Positions 45,073 to 63,667 of a DNA stretch of 64,000 nucleotides are shown piece by piece. This DNA is from Gemmatimonadetes bacterium T265 (GTDB lineage: Bacteria; Gemmatimonadota; Gemmatimonadetes; Gemmatimonadales; Gemmatimonadaceae): NCBI GenBank assembly GCA_019973575.1, contig BPUI01000003.1, forward strand, positions 248,001 to 312,000. The letters are read 5' to 3'. Positions within the stretch are counted from its first letter, which is position 1; each line of letters starts with the position of its first letter. The notes under the pieces were generated by a model. The model did not search any database, was not told the DNA's origin, and saw nothing but the letters and a program-made list of their open reading frames with translations. Position numbers and translations under genes: made by a program.

Positions 45073-45117
45073 ACCGGCGGCTCCCGTCCGGCGGTGGCTC
45101 CCGCCGAGGCCGCCGGT
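45073..45117. terminator. nested GC hairpin after the SDR gene
   Basis: Nine-base perfect arms (45073-45081 and 45109-45117) enclose a smaller GGCGG/CCGCC stem. It starts two bases after the SDR stop. No T tract follows, so it may be a weak terminator or part of the cold-shock gene leader. Confidence 0.45.
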
Positions 45118-45188
45118 TGGTCCGTGCACGCGTCCTGCATGCACCGACCCCGTTCCCGAATCCCTCCCTCTTTTTCGAAGCGTTCACG

Positions 45189-45617
45189 ATGCGGACGACC
45201 GGCACAGTCAAGTGGTTCAACAACGACAAGGGCTTCGGGTTCATCGCGCCCGAAAACGGCGGTAAGGATCTCTTTGTCCATCACTCGGCGATCCAGGGCT
45301 CTGGGTTCAAGTCGCTCGACGAGGGAGAGCGCGTCGAGTTCGACATCGTCGAAGGGCAGAAGGGCCCCGCGGCCGAAAACGTGACGCGGCTCGGCGGCGG
45401 CACGCCGAACAGCGGCGGCGGCGGTGGTAGCCGCGGCGGGTACGGCGGTGGCGGCGGTGGGAGCCGCGGCGGCTACGGTGGTGGCGGCGGCGGTGGTGGT
45501 GGCCGCGGCGGCTACGGCGGCGGCGAGGGCGGCCGGGACAGCGGCTATGGGGACGGCGGCGGCCGTGGTGGGTACGGCGGCGGTGGTGGCGGCGGCGGGC
45601 GCCGGCGCGACTACTAA
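45189..45617 (+). CDS. cold-shock domain protein with Gly/Arg-rich RGG-type tail
   Basis: A protein of 142 residues. The first 70 residues are a complete CspA-type domain with the RNA-binding motifs [11 protein letters not shown] (RNP1) and DLFVHHSAI (RNP2). The remaining 72 residues are almost only Gly, Arg and Tyr, in repeats of the RGGYGGGG type, ending RRRDY. Bacterial Csp proteins usually stop at about 70 residues; a tail of this kind is known from plant GRP2 and bacterial glycine-rich RNA-binding proteins. It probably binds single-stranded nucleic acid and may self-associate. A 118-base leader precedes it and a 26-bp perfect hairpin follows. Confidence 0.92.
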
Positions 45618-48158: not shown

Positions 48159-50600
48159 ATGCGCCCTCGCGCGCCGCGCCGGCCGCTACTGCCGCCCGCC
48201 GTCCTCCTCGCGCTCGCGTCCGCGGCCTGCAGCGGGCGCGACGCCGTCACCCCGACCGCCCCCGCCGCCGCGCCCGCGCTGGCGGCGTCGACGGCGACGG
48301 CCTCGTCCCGCTGGTCCGACCCGGCCACCTGGCCGGGAAAGTCCGTGCCCGCGGCCGGCGCGGCGGTCGTCGTCCCCGCGGGGCGCACGGTCGTGCTCGA
48401 CGTGAGCCCGCCCGCCCTCGCGAGCGTCACCGTGGCCGGCACGCTCAGCGTCCCCGACAGCGCGGACGTGCGCCTAACGACCGGGGCCGTCGTGGTCGCC
48501 GACGGCGGGCGGTTCGAGGCGGGCGGCGAGCACCGGCCGTTCGCGCACCGCCTCACCATCACCCTCACCGGCGCCGACGACGGCAGCAGCGTGATGGGGA
48601 TGGGCTCGAAGGTGCTCGGCGTCATGGGCACGCTCGAGCTGCACGGCGCCCCGCGGGCGGGGTGGACCCGCCTCGGCGCGTCGGCGCGCGGGGGCGCGAG
48701 CGTGCTGACGCTGGCGAGCAACCCGGGCTGGATCGCCGGCGACCGGCTCGTCGTGTCGTCGACGGAGTTCGTGCCCACCGACGCCGAAGAGGTCACCGTG
48801 GCGGCCGTGCAGGGCACGAGCGTGACGCTCGCCCAGCCGCTGCAGAATTTCCACTTCGGCGACCTGCAGACGATCGACGGGCGCACGGTCGACGAGCGCG
48901 CGGAGGTCGGGCTCCTGACGCGCAACATCGTCGTGCAGGGCGACAGCGCGTCGTCGGCATCCGGGTTCGGCGGGCATGTGATGGTCATGCGCGGCGGCAC
49001 GGCGCACGTCGAGGGGGTGGAGTTCTTCCGCATGGGACAGCGGGGGCACCAGGCGCGCTACCCGATGCACTGGCACCTCGCGGGCGACACCAAGGGCCAG
49101 TACGCGCGGCGCAACAGCATCTGGCACACCGAGAACCGGTGCCTCACGGTCCACGGGACCAACGGCGTGCTCGTCCAGGGCAACGTCTGCTACGACCACC
49201 CGGGGCACGGCTACTTCGTCGAGGACGGCTCCGAGACCGGCAACACGTTCGACGGCAACCTCGGCCTCGGCACGCGCGTCCCGGCCCCCGGGGCGGTGAT
49301 CCTCCCGAGCGACAGCACGCCGTCGACGTTCTGGATCACCAACCTCGACAACACGTTCCGCAACAACGTCGCGGCCGGGTCGTCGGCGTTCGGGTTCTGG
49401 GTCGCACTCCCCGACCACCCGACCGGGCTGTCGGCCAACACGACGCAGTGGCCGCGGCAGACGCCGCTGCGCGAGTTCTCGGGGAACGTCGCGCACTCCA
49501 ACCGGCGTGTCGGACTGAACGTCGACAACGGCCCGCGCCCGGACCACACCACCGAGGTGACGGTGTACGCGCCCGTCGCGACGCCGGGCACGGCCTCGGC
49601 GCCGGTCGAGGCGGTGTTCCAGAACTTCACCGCGTACAAGCACCCGGGACGCGCGGTGTGGCTGCGCGGGCGCAACCTGCGCATGACCGGCGCGGTGCTG
49701 GCCGACAACGGCACGGGCGCGACGTTCGCCGCGGTGGAGGGCTACCTCGACGGCGCGCTCGTGGTGGGCGAGTCGGGGAACAACCGTAACCCGTTAGGCG
49801 GTCCCAACCCAACGCGCGGCTTCCAGTTCTACGACGGGCGCGTCGCGGCGGTGCGCTCGACGTTCGTCAACTTCCGGCCGTCGGCGGGGCTGACGACGGC
49901 GGCGCTCAGCTTCAACCCGGCGAACTCGTTCGACGTGAGCACGCTGAACTTCGCCCAGGGGCTGCGCTTTATCGGGTCGGCGCCCATCTACGTCGACACG
50001 CCGGACCCGGACAAGGACGGCGACCGCGCGGCCGTGGTGCAAGACGCGGACGGGAGCCTCACGGGGAGCGCCGGCGCGTACGTCGTGGCCGACGTGCCCG
50101 TGCTCGTCTCGGCGGGCTGCACGCGCCACGCCGACTGGAACGCGTACGTGTGCACCAACCGGTACGCCCAGTTCGAGGTGATCGCCGCGGGGAGCGGCGC
50201 GCTGCGCGTCGCCCCGCTCGACCTCACGCGCGACGACGGCGCGACGATGCGGATGGTCGGACGCGGCAACGGGCCGCGCCGCGTGCTCGCGTCGTTGCCG
50301 GTCGGGCGCGGGTACGTGGTGCGCTTCGCGGGCGGCGCGATCGACCAGCCGCGCCTCACCGTGCGCGAGCTCTCGGCGGGCGACTGGGTGCGCCTCGCCG
50401 TGCCGGTCGCGAGTCCCGCATTTGCCGTGACGCGCGACGACGACCCGACGCACCCGCTGACCGCGGCGGCCTCGCTCGCGGCGCTCGACGCGAGCGCCGG
50501 CGACCGCTATTACCTCGACGCCGCGGCGGGGCTCATCTACGTCAAGGCGATCGCCGCCGCGGGACAGACGACCGTCACGTTCAGCATCGACCCGCAGTGA
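48159..50600 (+). CDS. G8-domain lipoprotein, CEMIP/TMEM2-like with parallel beta-helix
   Basis: The ATG at 48159 gives 813 residues with a lipobox (ALASAAC). Residues about 50-170 form a G8 domain: SRWSDPATWPGKSVPAAGAA, TVVLDVSPPALASVTVAGTL, FAHRLTITLTG. A right-handed beta-helix region follows, with GTAHVEGVEFFRMGQRGHQ, RYPMHWHLAGDT, NRCLTVHGTNGVLVQGNVCY and GHGYFVEDGSETGNTF. This order matches the CEMIP/TMEM2/fibrocystin-L group, whose animal members degrade or bind hyaluronan. In a bacterium it is probably a surface polysaccharide-binding or -cleaving protein; the activity is inference. A further beta-rich domain lies at about 640-813. Confidence 0.78.
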   Translation: MRPRAPRRPLLPPAVLLALASAACSGRDAVTPTAPAAAPALAASTATASSRWSDPATWPGKSVPAAGAAVVVPAGRTVVLDVSPPALASVTVAGTLSVPDSADVRLTTGAVVVADGGRFEAGGEHRPFAHRLTITLTGADDGSSVMGMGSKVLGVMGTLELHGAPRAGWTRLGASARGGASVLTLASNPGWIAGDRLVVSSTEFVPTDAEEVTVAAVQGTSVTLAQPLQNFHFGDLQTIDGRTVDERAEVGLLTRNIVVQGDSASSASGFGGHVMVMRGGTAHVEGVEFFRMGQRGHQARYPMHWHLAGDTKGQYARRNSIWHTENRCLTVHGTNGVLVQGNVCYDHPGHGYFVEDGSETGNTFDGNLGLGTRVPAPGAVILPSDSTPSTFWITNLDNTFRNNVAAGSSAFGFWVALPDHPTGLSANTTQWPRQTPLREFSGNVAHSNRRVGLNVDNGPRPDHTTEVTVYAPVATPGTASAPVEAVFQNFTAYKHPGRAVWLRGRNLRMTGAVLADNGTGATFAAVEGYLDGALVVGESGNNRNPLGGPNPTRGFQFYDGRVAAVRSTFVNFRPSAGLTTAALSFNPANSFDVSTLNFAQGLRFIGSAPIYVDTPDPDKDGDRAAVVQDADGSLTGSAGAYVVADVPVLVSAGCTRHADWNAYVCTNRYAQFEVIAAGSGALRVAPLDLTRDDGATMRMVGRGNGPRRVLASLPVGRGYVVRFAGGAIDQPRLTVRELSAGDWVRLAVPVASPAFAVTRDDDPTHPLTAAASLAALDASAGDRYYLDAAAGLIYVKAIAAAGQTTVTFSIDPQ

Positions 50601-50650
50601 CGCGCCGCGCCGGCGCGTCCGCAATCACGCGCCCGCGGTAACGCATCCAC

Positions 50651-50693
50651 GTAGCAGGTCCGTCGCCCACATCTGCGGCAACGGACCTGCTGC
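50651..50693. terminator. 13-bp hairpin after the G8 lipoprotein gene
   Basis: Arms 50651-50663 and 50681-50693 pair over 13 positions (one G-T) around a 17-base loop. It lies 50 bases after the lipoprotein stop and 39 before the next start. No T tract is present. A terminator or leader structure is possible. Confidence 0.5.
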
Positions 50694-53543: not shown

Positions 53544-55700
53544 GTGTCGCCACCTCCACGCCGCGACGTGTCCTTGTCCGACTCACCCGCCCTCCCCGCT
53601 CTGCGTCCGCCCCGGGCCGAGCGCCGGCCGCAGCTCCCGCCGGCGGTCCCCGAGTTCGTGTTGCGGCACCGTCGGGTGCTGCTCGTCGGCCTGCACGCGG
53701 TGCTCCTCCCGGTCGTTTACGCGATCGCGTACGCCCTGCGGTTCGACGGGGACGTGCCCGCGCCTTACGTCGTGACGTTCTGGGCGACGCTGCCGCTGCT
53801 CTTCGTCGTGCGGCTCGTGGTATTCGCCCTCTTCCGGCAGTACAACGGCTGGTGGCGGCACGCGGGCCTCTACGACCTCGCGGAGCTCGGCAAGGCGGCG
53901 ACGCTCAGCTCGGTGCTGTTCTGGGGCGTCGCCGCGCTCGCGCGGCTCGTGCCGGGGTTCCCCGAACCGGGGTTCCCGCGCTCGGTGGTGATCCTCGACT
54001 GGGGCGCGACGGTGCTCTGCCTCGGCGGTCTGCGCTTCGGGCTGCGCTGGATGCGCGAGCGCGAGGTCGCCGGCGCCTGGCCCCGCGACGCGCGGCGCAC
54101 CCTGATCGTCGGCGCCGACGTGACGGCGGAGCGGCTGCTCGGGCAGCTGCGCCTCGACCGCAACAGCGGGATCCACCCGGTCGGCCTCGTCGACGACCAC
54201 CCGGCCAAGGCGGGGATGCGCCTCCAGGGCGTGCCGGTGCTCGGCACCGTCGACGACCTCGCCCGGCTGGTGCCGCGGCACGGCATCGAGCTCGTGGTGG
54301 TCGCGATCACGGCCGCGACGCGGCGCGAGATGATGCGCATCATCGAGCGCTGCACCGGACTCGGCATCGAGGTCAAGATCGTGCCCTCGTTGCGCGAGAT
54401 GCTCGAAGGGCGCGCGCGCCTCAACGAGCCGCGGACGGTGCGGATCGAAGACCTGCTGGGCCGCGCGCCGGTCGCGCTCGACCTCGCGGCCGTGCGGGCC
54501 GACCTCGCGGGAAGCGTCGTGCTGATCACGGGCGGGGCGGGCTCGATCGGGTCGGAGCTCGCGCGCCAGGTCGCGCGCCTCGGGCCGCGGCGGCTCGTGC
54601 TCATGGACCAGGCGGAGAGCCCGCTGTTCTTCGTCCACAACGAACTCGTCGCGCGCGACCCGGGGCTCGACGTCGTGCCGGTGATCGCCGACATCGCCCA
54701 CCCGCGGCAGCTCGAGCGCGCCTTCGCCCTGCACCGCCCCGACTACGTGCTGCACGCCGCGGCGTACAAGCACGTGCCGATGATGGAGGCCAACGTCATC
54801 GAGGCGGTGCACAACAACGTGCTCGGCACGTTCGCCGTCGCCGAGTCTGCGGTGCGCCACGGGGCGAAAAAGTTCGTGATGATCTCGACCGACAAGGCCG
54901 TGAACCCGTCGAGCGTGATGGGCGCGACCAAGCGCGCGGCCGAGCGGCTGGTGCTGGAGTGGCCGGACTTCCGGCACGCGGGAACGGACTTCCGCGCCGT
55001 GCGCTTCGGCAACGTGCTCGGCTCGAACGGCTCCGTGGTGCCGGTGTTCACGCAGCAGATCGCGGCGGGTGGCCCGGTGACGGTGACCCACCCGGAGACG
55101 ACGCGCTACTTCATGACGATCCCCGAGGCCGTGCAGCTCGTGCTGCAGGCGGCGGCGCTGCCCGAGGCGAGCGGCCGGATCGCGATGCTGGAAATGGGCG
55201 AGCCGGTGCGCATCCGGGAGATGGCCGAGCAGCTCATCCGGCTGTCGGGGCTCGAGCCGTACACGGAGATGCCGATCGTCTTCACCGGGCTGCGGCCGGG
55301 CGAGAAGCTGCACGAGGAGCTGATGACGGTCGGCTGCACGACGCGCCCGACCTCGGTGGACAAGATCCGCGTGCTCCACGAGCCGGCGATCGGCGGCGCG
55401 CTCGTCCCGGCGACGGTGACGCGGCTGCGCGCGGCCGTCCAGGCCGGCACGGCCGCGACCGCGCTCCGCGTACTGCACGCGATCGTCCCCGAGTGGGAGG
55501 CGCCGGACGACGTCGGCCCGTCAGGCGTCGAAGGCGACGCGATCAGCGACGCGATGGGCGACCTCGTCAGCGAGGGCGCGCCGGCCGATGGCGGTCGCCC
55601 GATCGTTGCGGTGCGGGAGCGGTACGCGCGGGCCGCGGCGACGAGCGTCGCGGCCCCGAGCGCCGCGCGTCGCTCCGCCACTCCGCCCCCTGCCGCGTGA
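53544..55700 (+). CDS. membrane-bound UDP-sugar 4,6-dehydratase (PglF/WbpM/CapD family)
   Basis: A protein of 718 residues from a GTG. Four N-terminal helices (about 42-150) are followed by a CoA-binding-like domain (RTLIVGADVTAERLLGQL) and the SDR-type catalytic domain: VVLITGGAGSIGSELARQV, VLHAAAYKHVPMMEANV, the STDKAV box in place of YxxxK, and GEKLHEELMT. These enzymes convert UDP-GlcNAc to the 4-keto-6-deoxy sugar that leads to bacillosamine or fucosamine-type residues. The hydrophilic C-terminal tail (about 620-718) is longer than usual. It is the first gene of the second operon and overlaps the export gene by four bases. Confidence 0.93.
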   Translation: MSPPPRRDVSLSDSPALPALRPPRAERRPQLPPAVPEFVLRHRRVLLVGLHAVLLPVVYAIAYALRFDGDVPAPYVVTFWATLPLLFVVRLVVFALFRQYNGWWRHAGLYDLAELGKAATLSSVLFWGVAALARLVPGFPEPGFPRSVVILDWGATVLCLGGLRFGLRWMREREVAGAWPRDARRTLIVGADVTAERLLGQLRLDRNSGIHPVGLVDDHPAKAGMRLQGVPVLGTVDDLARLVPRHGIELVVVAITAATRREMMRIIERCTGLGIEVKIVPSLREMLEGRARLNEPRTVRIEDLLGRAPVALDLAAVRADLAGSVVLITGGAGSIGSELARQVARLGPRRLVLMDQAESPLFFVHNELVARDPGLDVVPVIADIAHPRQLERAFALHRPDYVLHAAAYKHVPMMEANVIEAVHNNVLGTFAVAESAVRHGAKKFVMISTDKAVNPSSVMGATKRAAERLVLEWPDFRHAGTDFRAVRFGNVLGSNGSVVPVFTQQIAAGGPVTVTHPETTRYFMTIPEAVQLVLQAAALPEASGRIAMLEMGEPVRIREMAEQLIRLSGLEPYTEMPIVFTGLRPGEKLHEELMTVGCTTRPTSVDKIRVLHEPAIGGALVPATVTRLRAAVQAGTAATALRVLHAIVPEWEAPDDVGPSGVEGDAISDAMGDLVSEGAPADGGRPIVAVRERYARAAATSVAAPSAARRSATPPPAA

Positions 55701-61403: not shown

Positions 61404-62441
61404 ATGCCGCACCCGACCCCCGCCGCCCCGGCGCCGGACGCGCCCGCGCAGGACGCGCGCCCGCAGGACGCGCGCCCGCAGGCCACCGTGGCCATCGTGA
61501 CCAAGAACCGCCGCGAGTACGCCCGCGCGGCGATCCGCTCGGCGCTCGCGCAGGTGCCGCGCGTGGAGGTGCTCGTCTGCGACGACGGCTCGACCGACGG
61601 CACGCCCGAGATGGTGCGCGCGGAGTTCCCCGAGGCGGTGCTGCACGTGTCGGAGCGCTCGGCCGACATCGCCGTGCAGCGGACGCGCGCCACCGCGCTC
61701 GCCTCCGCCCCGTTCGTCTTCTGCATCGACGACGACGCGGCGTTCAGCTCGCCCGACACGGTGGCCGAGGCGCTGCGGCTGTTCGACCACCCGCGGGTCG
61801 CGCTCGTCGCGATGCCGTTCGTGAACGTGCGCGTGAGCGACCGCGTGCTGCAGCGCGCGCCGGCGCCGGAGGGGACGTACGTCGCCTCGGGGTTCGTCGG
61901 CACGGCGTACGGCGTCCGGCGAGACGTGTTCGTCGCACTCGGCGGGTACCGGCCGCTGCTCGTGCATCAGTACGAGGAGGAAGACTTCGCGATCCGGCTG
62001 CTCGACGCGGGCTACCTGATCCGGCTCGCGAGCACGCCGCCGATCCACCACTTCCACTCGCCGACGCGGAACCGCGAGGGGATGGACCGGTGGGGCGCGC
62101 GGAACACGATCCTCTTCACCTGGCACAACGTGCCGATGCCGTACCTCGTGGCGCACATGGCGGCGACGTCGGTAAACGCCTTCGCGGCCGGCGTGCGCGC
62201 GGGGACGACGGGGCGCAAGCTGCGCGGGATGGCGGCCGGCTACGCGGACTGCCTGCGGCAGCGGCAGGAGCGCACGCCGGTGCGGGGTGAGACGTACCGC
62301 CTCTACCGACGGCTGAAGACGGGCGGGCCGCTGCCGGCCGCGGTCGCGGAGGGGACGGCGTGGGGGCGGGTGGCCGCGGGCGCGGCGGAGTCGGCGCGTA
62401 ATGCCACGGCGGCGCGGCGGCCGCAGGCGGTGGTCGCGTGA
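61404..62441 (+). CDS. glycosyltransferase family 2
   Basis: A protein of 345 residues. After a 25-residue Pro/Ala/Gln leader made by a short DNA repeat, the GT-A domain reads TVAIVTKNRREYARAAIRSA, VEVLVCDDGSTDGTPEMV and PFVFCIDDDAAFSS with the DDD near residue 113. GTAYGVRRDVFVALGGYRP and QYEEEDFAIRLLDAGYLI mark the acceptor side. It probably adds a sugar in operon 2. The GTG of the next gene overlaps its stop (GTGA). Confidence 0.9.
   Translation: MPHPTPAAPAPDAPAQDARPQDARPQATVAIVTKNRREYARAAIRSALAQVPRVEVLVCDDGSTDGTPEMVRAEFPEAVLHVSERSADIAVQRTRATALASAPFVFCIDDDAAFSSPDTVAEALRLFDHPRVALVAMPFVNVRVSDRVLQRAPAPEGTYVASGFVGTAYGVRRDVFVALGGYRPLLVHQYEEEDFAIRLLDAGYLIRLASTPPIHHFHSPTRNREGMDRWGARNTILFTWHNVPMPYLVAHMAATSVNAFAAGVRAGTTGRKLRGMAAGYADCLRQRQERTPVRGETYRLYRRLKTGGPLPAAVAEGTAWGRVAAGAAESARNATAARRPQAVVA
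61447..61476 (+). repeat. 15-bp tandem repeat in the glycosyltransferase leader
   Basis: Two exact copies of GCAGGACGCGCGCCC followed by a partial third. It encodes the DARPQ repeats of the N-terminal leader. In-frame slippage would change leader length only. Confidence 0.75.
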
Positions 62442-63667
62442 GTACCGCCGTGTTGGACCCGCGCGCCGCCCGCCCCGCGGCGCCCTGCGACGAGCCGCGT
62501 CGCGCCGCGCGCCGCGGGCAGCGGCCGTCCGACGGCGCGCGCCGCGGGCCGCGCGTGCTCGTCGTGCAGCGCATCGTCCCGCCGTACCGGGTGCCGCTCT
62601 TCCGCGCGCTCGCCGCGTCGTCCGAAGTCGCGTACGAATTCGCGTACGGCGAGCAGCGCGCCGGGTCGGCGCTCGAGAGCGTCGTCGCGCCCGACGGGCT
62701 CGCCGTGCGGCCGGTGCGCAACACGTACTTCGCGTCGCGCGGGCGCGAGCTCGCGGTGTGGCAGCGCGGCGTGTCGCGGCTCGTGCGCTCGGGGACCTAC
62801 GACGCCGTGATCGCGGAGTTCAACCCGCGCATCGCGTCCAACGTGCAGGCGTTCGCGGCGGCGCGGCTGCGCGGCGTGCCGTTCGTGTGGTGGGGGCACG
62901 GCGCGGGCCCCAACGCGGGGCGGGCGACGGTGCGCGCGCGCGTCGCGCTCGCCCGCGTGGCCGACGCGGTGATCTTCTACAACGAGGCGCAGGCCGAGCG
63001 CTTCGTCGCGGCCGGGCTCGCGCCCGAGCGGGCGTTCGTGGCGCCGAACTCGCTCGACGTGTCGGCGATCACCGCCTTCGCGCGCCCGCCCGAGCGGGCG
63101 GGGGACCGCGCCGGGCGCGACCGCGTGCTCACCGTCGGGCGGCTGATCCCGGAGAAGCGGGTCGACCTGCTCGTGCGCGCGTTCGCGCTCGCGCGCGGCC
63201 GCTTCGGCGGGCCGCAGCGCCTCACGATCGTCGGCGACGGCCCGGAGCGCCCCGCGCTCGAGCAGCTCGCCGCGTCGCTCTGCCTAACGGACAGCGTCGA
63301 GTTCGCGGGGTCGCTGTACGACCCGGCGGCGCTCGCGCCGCACTTCAACGCGGCGTGGGCGATGGTCTCGCCGGGCGGGATCGGCCTCGCGGCGGTGCAG
63401 AGCCTCGCGTTCGGCGTGCCGGTCGTGCTGGCCGCCGGCGAGCCGCACGGGCCCGAGGCGTCGGCGCTCGCGGACGGGCAGAACGCGGTGTTCTTCCCCG
63501 GCGGGCAGGTCGAGGCGATGGCCGACGCGCTCGTCGCGCTCGACGCCGACCCGGCGCGCTGGCTCACGATGGCGCGCGCGGCCCGGGCCACCTCTGACGC
63601 GCGCTTCGGCCTCGACCGGATGACGGCGGCGTTCGACCGCGCCGTGCGGCATGTCTGTCCGGCCTGA
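62438..63667 (+). CDS. glycosyltransferase family 4
   Basis: A protein of 409 residues from a GTG overlapping the previous stop. After an Arg-rich leader of 35 residues the GT-B fold begins RVLVVQRIVPPYRVPLFRAL. Motifs: AVIAEFNPRIASNVQAF, PFVWWGHGAGPNAG, VGRLIPEKRVDLLVRAFALA, TIVGDGPERPALEQLA and WAMVSPGGIGLAAVQSLAFG. The usual EPFG-type glutamate position reads SPGGIGLAAVQSL, a variant. It acts on the cytoplasmic side in repeat-unit assembly. The next gene begins 17 bases before its stop. Confidence 0.88.
   Translation: MSTAVLDPRAARPAAPCDEPRRAARRGQRPSDGARRGPRVLVVQRIVPPYRVPLFRALAASSEVAYEFAYGEQRAGSALESVVAPDGLAVRPVRNTYFASRGRELAVWQRGVSRLVRSGTYDAVIAEFNPRIASNVQAFAAARLRGVPFVWWGHGAGPNAGRATVRARVALARVADAVIFYNEAQAERFVAAGLAPERAFVAPNSLDVSAITAFARPPERAGDRAGRDRVLTVGRLIPEKRVDLLVRAFALARGRFGGPQRLTIVGDGPERPALEQLAASLCLTDSVEFAGSLYDPAALAPHFNAAWAMVSPGGIGLAAVQSLAFGVPVVLAAGEPHGPEASALADGQNAVFFPGGQVEAMADALVALDADPARWLTMARAARATSDARFGLDRMTAAFDRAVRHVCPA

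Follow-up and report, generated by a model that had tools for sequence, protein, structure and literature searches.

The question raised by this locus is what a bacterial lipoprotein with a G8 domain does at the cell surface, and whether it can inform a dispute about the animal CEMIP/TMEM2 proteins that it resembles. The gene lies in a window of 64,000 nucleotides from Gemmatimonadetes bacterium T265 (the whole stretch of DNA that was analysed, positions 248,001 to 312,000 of contig BPUI01000003.1). Both the claim that TMEM2 and CEMIP are hyaluronidases and the location of their active site are disputed. As excerpted, one paper reports no activity for TMEM2 and assigns no active site (PMC10206443), a second reports that human TMEM2 is inactive and mouse TMEM2 active (PMC10276149), and a third reports that TMEM2 is active (PMC10474455). 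A search of the open-licence literature found no study of a bacterial CEMIP/TMEM2 homologue and no measured activity for bacterial members of the family.

The gene begins with an ATG at 48159, its stop codon ends at 50600, and it encodes a protein of 813 amino acids on the forward strand (Table 1). By codon position, its G+C content resembles that of the window's other genes (GC3 0.96), and a search of the host genome found it to be the sole G8 match. The gene itself is of an ordinary kind and its family is already annotated publicly as "G8 domain-containing protein"; what is newly described here is the minimal, lectin-less architecture of the product. The first-pass annotation had proposed a lipobox followed by a G8 domain and a beta-helix with an HWH segment, and this layout was borne out by Pfam, by the sequence and by conservation among homologues. 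The G8 domain scored 108.9 bits against a cut-off of 22.9 and the CEMIP_beta-hel domain 234.4 bits against 27.3, the latter over its full profile. The HWH segment is part of RYPMHWH at residues 300-306, and both of its histidines are 98-99% conserved in 91 homologues.

Table 1. Coordinates of the gene, its encoded domains and the hairpin that follows it, in positions of the window
Feature	Coordinates	Strand	Basis
Whole gene, 813-aa G8/CEMIP-beta-helix lipoprotein	48159..50600	+	ORF, Pfam; phylum homologues in 31/395 genomes
Lipoprotein signal peptide, residues 1-23	48159..48227	+	Sequence: basic start, hydrophobic core
Lipobox Cys24, Ser at +2	48228..48230	+	Sequence, lipobox pattern
G8 domain, residues 57-172	48327..48674	+	PF10162, E 2e-31
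Small beta-barrel/sandwich, residues ~166-254	48654..48920	+	TMEM2 alignment, structure comparison
CEMIP beta-helix Pfam domain, residues 269-453	48963..49517	+	PF24606, E 1.6e-69, profile 1-212 of 212
Candidate active face, residues 301-356 (Y301, H304, H306, R327, H332, H350, E355, D356)	49059..49226	+	Conservation, coil position
C-terminal beta-sandwich, TMEM2 domain X counterpart (start approximate)	49956..50597	+	Structural alignment; conserved C654/W660/C665
Strong hairpin without T tract	50651..50693	+	MFE -37.4 kcal/mol, z -5.9; 15-nt arms

The N-terminus is lipobox-like (ASAA-C24), with the cysteine placed after a hydrophobic stretch in the manner of a lipoprotein signal peptide. A PROSITE-style lipobox pattern was found in 28 of the 30 Gemmatimonadota-type homologues (this protein included) versus 6 of the 61 others, most of which have a standard Sec-type signal peptide. 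The protein would be lipidated at Cys24 and then displayed at the outer membrane or in the periplasm. The serine at +2 presumably points to the outer membrane, if the rule from E. coli applies.

Resemblance to CEMIP/TMEM2 had also been suggested from the letters of the sequence, and it proved to be true homology across nearly all of the ordered chain. Searched as a single sequence against every PDB chain, the protein gave one convincing match, the human TMEM2 ectodomain 8c6i (E 3.3e-83), and a profile built from 62 bacterial members scored 517 bits against the same chain. The structure prediction and overlay on TMEM2 that had been recommended gave a CEMIP-like fold rather than an unrelated one: an AlphaFold model from the same 62 sequences (mean pLDDT 91.3, pTM 0.90) superposed residues 48-813 on TMEM2 119-1157 with a Z score of 40.2 and an rmsd of 1.9 A over 741 residues at 33% identity, and Foldseek agreed (1.5e-50). 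The overlay covers the core fold of the animal subfamily, that is the beta-helix including G8, which is reported to form the first turns of the helix in TMEM2 (PMC10206443, as excerpted), together with domain X. The bacterial protein therefore has the G8 domain, small beta-sandwich, beta-helix and domain X common to TMEM2 (CEMIP2) and its paralogue CEMIP/KIAA1199/HYBID, and it shares nearly all invariant polar residues with human TMEM2. It differs in being a lipoprotein, whereas the animal proteins are type II membrane proteins or secreted. In the tree TMEM2 sits on a branch of length 2.56 with weak support (16).

A further difference is that the protein has neither of the two lectin-like domains. 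From residue 175 to residue 185 and their TMEM2 equivalents, the intervening stretch is 9 residues long in the bacterial protein and 174 in TMEM2, the roughly 165 extra residues being lectin-like (GG) domain 1, and in the 91 bacterial homologues the anchors L172 and W191 are never separated by more than 18 residues. Nor is there a C-terminal lectin-like domain 2, since the protein stops at the position equivalent to residue 1157 of the 1381 in TMEM2. This bears on the active site, since the substitutions reported to abolish TMEM2 activity (R265C, D273N and D286N) all fall within lectin-like domain 1, where the three residues are considered to have a sugar-binding and not a catalytic role (PMC10206443, as excerpted). 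Because that domain is missing, these residues have no counterpart here. The expectation that the known active-site residues would be conserved held in part: R265, D273 and D286 are lacking from the alignment, and none of the conserved beta-helix residues is missing. Two long loops of TMEM2, 627-662 and 733-756, are described as obstructing its groove midway (PMC10206443, as excerpted). Both are shorter in the bacterial protein, where the corresponding stretches between fixed anchors have 24 residues versus 45 and 37 versus 48.

These absences weigh on the most literal reading of the homology, that the protein is a true hyaluronidase acting on animal hyaluronan. Homology to TMEM2/CEMIP argues for it, but the protein does not have the lectin-like domain that carries the activity-abolishing substitutions, a profile search of the host genome gave no match to GH88, and the record titles show that the related loci come mostly from environmental metagenome bins. 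A host hyaluronidase was accordingly ruled out as the main explanation by the missing lectin-like domain 1 and the lack of a GH88 match, and this reading is regarded as very improbable indeed. On the same two grounds, absence of the animal sugar-binding domain and of GH88, hyaluronan is unlikely to be the natural substrate.

The residues that bacteria and animals have in common point elsewhere. Conservation was assessed in 91 full-length bacterial homologues (119 were called and 28 short ones omitted), which gave 87 columns at least 95% identical between residues 185 and 700; 86 of these align with human TMEM2 and 76 hold the same residue. The conserved pairs, bacterial residue first and human numbering assuming a 23-residue tag ahead of residue 106 at the start of the chain, are H232/H471, D245/D480, R247/R482, E249/E484, H273/H519, H304/H550, H306/H552, R327/R580, H332/H585, H350/H603, E355/E608, D356/D609, H446/H722, D456/D732, K494/K781, R503/R790, D516/D803 and D559/D875. 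For D385 the human counterpart is uncertain, as two alignments give different aspartates, and C654, W660 and C665 are conserved in the C-terminal sandwich. Within the helix (residues 257-571) 12 of 17 conserved charged or histidine residues, six of the 17 being invariant histidines, are located on the first strand of a coil or no more than two residues away from it, although such positions number 113 of 315 (p 0.003); the comparison with non-conserved charged residues, of which 10 of 43 are so placed, gives p 0.0009. Strands were assigned by hand from the DSSP string and the cluster was derived from strand order rather than coordinates, so that on the model the conserved polar residues appear to be concentrated on one face of the beta-helix.

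The reading favoured here, and considered probable, is that the protein is a surface-anchored polysaccharide-active enzyme built on the bare CEMIP/TMEM2 core (G8, right-handed beta-helix and C-terminal beta-sandwich), with the conserved face as its catalytic site. A polysaccharide chain, most likely acidic, would run along the concave side of the helix, and the cluster of H304, H306, R327, H332, H350, E355 and D356 with its neighbours would cleave or modify a glycosidic unit through acid/base catalysis, perhaps with the help of a bound metal. The outcome could be a cut or an epimerisation by this set of His, Asp, Glu and Arg residues. The active site of human TMEM2/CEMIP would then be the same face (H550, H552, R580, H585, H603, E608 and D609), and the lectin-like domain would just present the substrate. 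It should be noted that HYBID/CEMIP has been described as endo-beta-N-acetylglucosaminidase-like and specific for HA, which fits poorly with a lyase- or epimerase-like site.

Other beta-helix proteins also speak for this reading. After TMEM2 the closest folds are the alginate epimerases AlgE6, AlgE4 and AlgG (Z 23-24), NosD (23), an alginate epimerase/lyase (22) and tailspikes that depolymerise polysaccharides (~21). The alginate C5-epimerases and epimerase/lyases have the right-handed beta-helix in common with the protein (Z 22-24 over ~320-350 residues, with rmsd 3.0-3.3 A for AlgE/AlgG), but identity is only 13-16% and the epimerases have neither a G8 domain nor domain X. In an alginate epimerase histidine and acidic residues of the groove catalyse (Y149, D152 and H154). 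The catalytic motif of the C5-epimerases is DPH(D/E), and reading the 813-aa translation by eye found none. HWH with Y301 and R327 resembles the epimerase set in kind, a likeness of residue composition. In a fragment model of residues 48-312 the last strand was unformed, and VIA-align with this model gave no AlgE row among the matches. A phage tail-tube identity was tried and rejected: both a weak NCBIfam match on residues 718-809 and a PDB tail-tube match on the small barrel are taken to reflect a shared beta-barrel shape. No phage matched the protein, and the viral fold library gave only generic tailspike-like beta-helices. The small barrel (residues 166-254, 48654-48920) resembles phage tail-tube, V-ATPase and elongation-factor beta-barrels in shape, with Z up to 12.3.

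NosD is the beta-helix of an ABC transporter complex that serves copper maturation, and its place among the close folds agrees with a second reading, in which the lipoprotein serves for binding or as a scaffold: its beta-helix would retain a polysaccharide or a metal at the cell surface but cut nothing. The human TMEM2 ectodomain was also without hyaluronidase activity in one careful study (PMC10206443, as excerpted). However, about 17 charged or histidine residues kept between bacteria and human on one face are more than binding usually needs, and another study finds TMEM2 active (PMC10474455, as excerpted). Binding alone is therefore thought unlikely, and that the bacterial protein binds or cuts polysaccharide at all is itself what the fold and the conserved face suggest.

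The surroundings of the gene offer a candidate substrate. As the first-pass annotation had described, methyltransferases, a deacetylase and exopolysaccharide genes follow, although one exopolysaccharide gene set was seen by Pfam where two operons had been proposed. The first genes downstream encode a protein with a weak match to methyltransferases, an FkbM methyltransferase and a polysaccharide deacetylase. After them come a protein of the nucleotide-sugar dehydratase type, an export protein, an ATPase and a UDP-GlcNAc 2-epimerase, and farther on a glycosyltransferase (62402-63664), with the export and biosynthesis genes starting at 53544. The protein could on this basis be a dedicated processing enzyme for the cell's own exopolysaccharide and part of the downstream locus: the deacetylase, export protein, 2-epimerase and more distant glycosyltransferase all lie within ~13 kb, and beta-helix epimerases and lyases such as AlgG work within exopolysaccharide loci. 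Against this, the hairpin in Table 1 stands between the G8 gene and the next one and is probably the end of the transcript, though a scan for T-tract terminators did not pick it up. In addition, the neighbours of homologues are hardly conserved. Clustering and a Pfam scan found only ABC transporters, peptidases and scattered families to recur. For 105 proteins encoded up to two genes away from 30 homologues of Gemmatimonadota type, the 25 most frequent Pfam families include none for polysaccharide synthesis. The proposed functional link to exopolysaccharide is thus unsupported by conservation, and a dedicated role in this locus is distinctly improbable. A second strong inverted repeat, likewise without a T tract, lies directly after the gene at 50599-50619. 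Upstream, 45117-45617 encodes a cold-shock-domain-like protein with a long Gly/Arg-rich tail and RGG-like repeats.

Relatives of the protein are spread unevenly over bacteria. The domain is present in 31 of 395 genomes of the host phylum; for the phylum to which an Altererythrobacter with a homologue belongs, the count is 3 of 398. When species genomes were scanned, 67 loci came up, most of them from Pseudomonadota, with some from Acidobacteriota, Planctomycetota and Gemmatimonadota and one from a Trueperaceae bin. In the tree the 30 rows of Gemmatimonadota type group together with support of 99, and the group includes one bin labelled Thermoleophilia (Actinomycetota); its copy (L003:702-3089) is of Gemmatimonadota type and sister to G088, which indicates either transfer or a mis-binned contig. 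The "G8 domain-containing proteins" of Erythrobacteraceae and Gammaproteobacteria have the same domain order and invariant residues (~36-42% identity in the fuller matches), but they carry a soluble Sec-type signal instead of the lipobox, and their first groove loop is longer (median 51 versus 24). Bins of both groups are multi-copy, with up to 12 copies per genome, often close together; one 3.0-Mb Altererythrobacter bin (G395, locus L036) has twelve CEMIP_beta-hel matches, and neighbouring pairs are common in the group. On a Croceibacterium atlanticum plasmid (L129) a G8 gene adjoins the genes of a TonB receptor and of two DUF6152 proteins, another G8 gene being close by, and on Vitreoscilla filiformis pVF1 (L130) a G8 gene lies just past the ccm cytochrome c maturation cluster.

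Some of the Erythrobacteraceae and gammaproteobacterial genes have cytochrome c or PQQ dehydrogenase neighbours. At Proteobacteria-type loci CxxCH occurs in 13 of 102 direct neighbours versus 9 of 333 genes farther out (p 0.0002, for loci that are related and not independent). Of the eight CxxCH neighbours that were scanned, four are mono-haem cytochromes c, three are PQQ dehydrogenases that also contain a cytochrome domain, and the last is a PSD/PSCyt protein; among 105 scanned neighbours, cytochrome c was found in 11 and PQQ dehydrogenases in 3. Small CxxCH genes stand beside the proteobacterial G8/CEMIP gene at L004, L007, L014, L018, L031, L043, L050 and L065, mostly divergent and 230-415 bp off, and PQQ dehydrogenases take their place at L005, L019 and L028. 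These redox proteins, and the lack of recurrent glycan genes beside homologues, weigh against an enzyme acting on polysaccharide. They raise the alternative of a metal-dependent or redox-coupled enzyme, whose histidine-rich face with its six invariant histidines would bind metal and which in Proteobacteria would exchange electrons, itself or through its product, with the cytochrome c or PQQ dehydrogenase. The TMEM2 crystal lists one Ni2+ (PMC10206443, as excerpted), which may however stem from the His tag or purification, and TMEM2 is reported to need Ca2+ (PMC10474455, as excerpted). No CxxCH was found in the 61 direct neighbours of Gemmatimonadota-type homologues, and this alternative is judged to be a long shot. 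A wider proposal, which is speculative and rather unlikely to hold as a whole, would take the bacterial proteins as the ancestral lectin-less form of CEMIP/TMEM2 and the histidine-rich, perhaps metal-binding face (TMEM2 H550/H552/R580/H585/H603/E608/D609) as the true active site, outside the published mutagenesis found; in Proteobacteria the enzyme would work with periplasmic electron-transfer proteins, and cleavage or the next step would be oxidative.

The data presented in this study amount to a sharp hypothesis about a known family and not to a new system. The comparison of bacterial and human proteins narrows the candidate residues to about 20 with exact human numbers, a new short list for the disputed active site of TMEM2. 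Since the bacterial protein keeps these invariant residues in a core that has no lectin-like domain, the question of TMEM2 activity becomes directly testable, and expression of such a homologue is probably less difficult than that of the human ectodomain, which is glycosylated. If the bare bacterial core does act on polysaccharide, the beta-helix would be catalytic, and this would separate the two hypotheses about where activity in the family resides.
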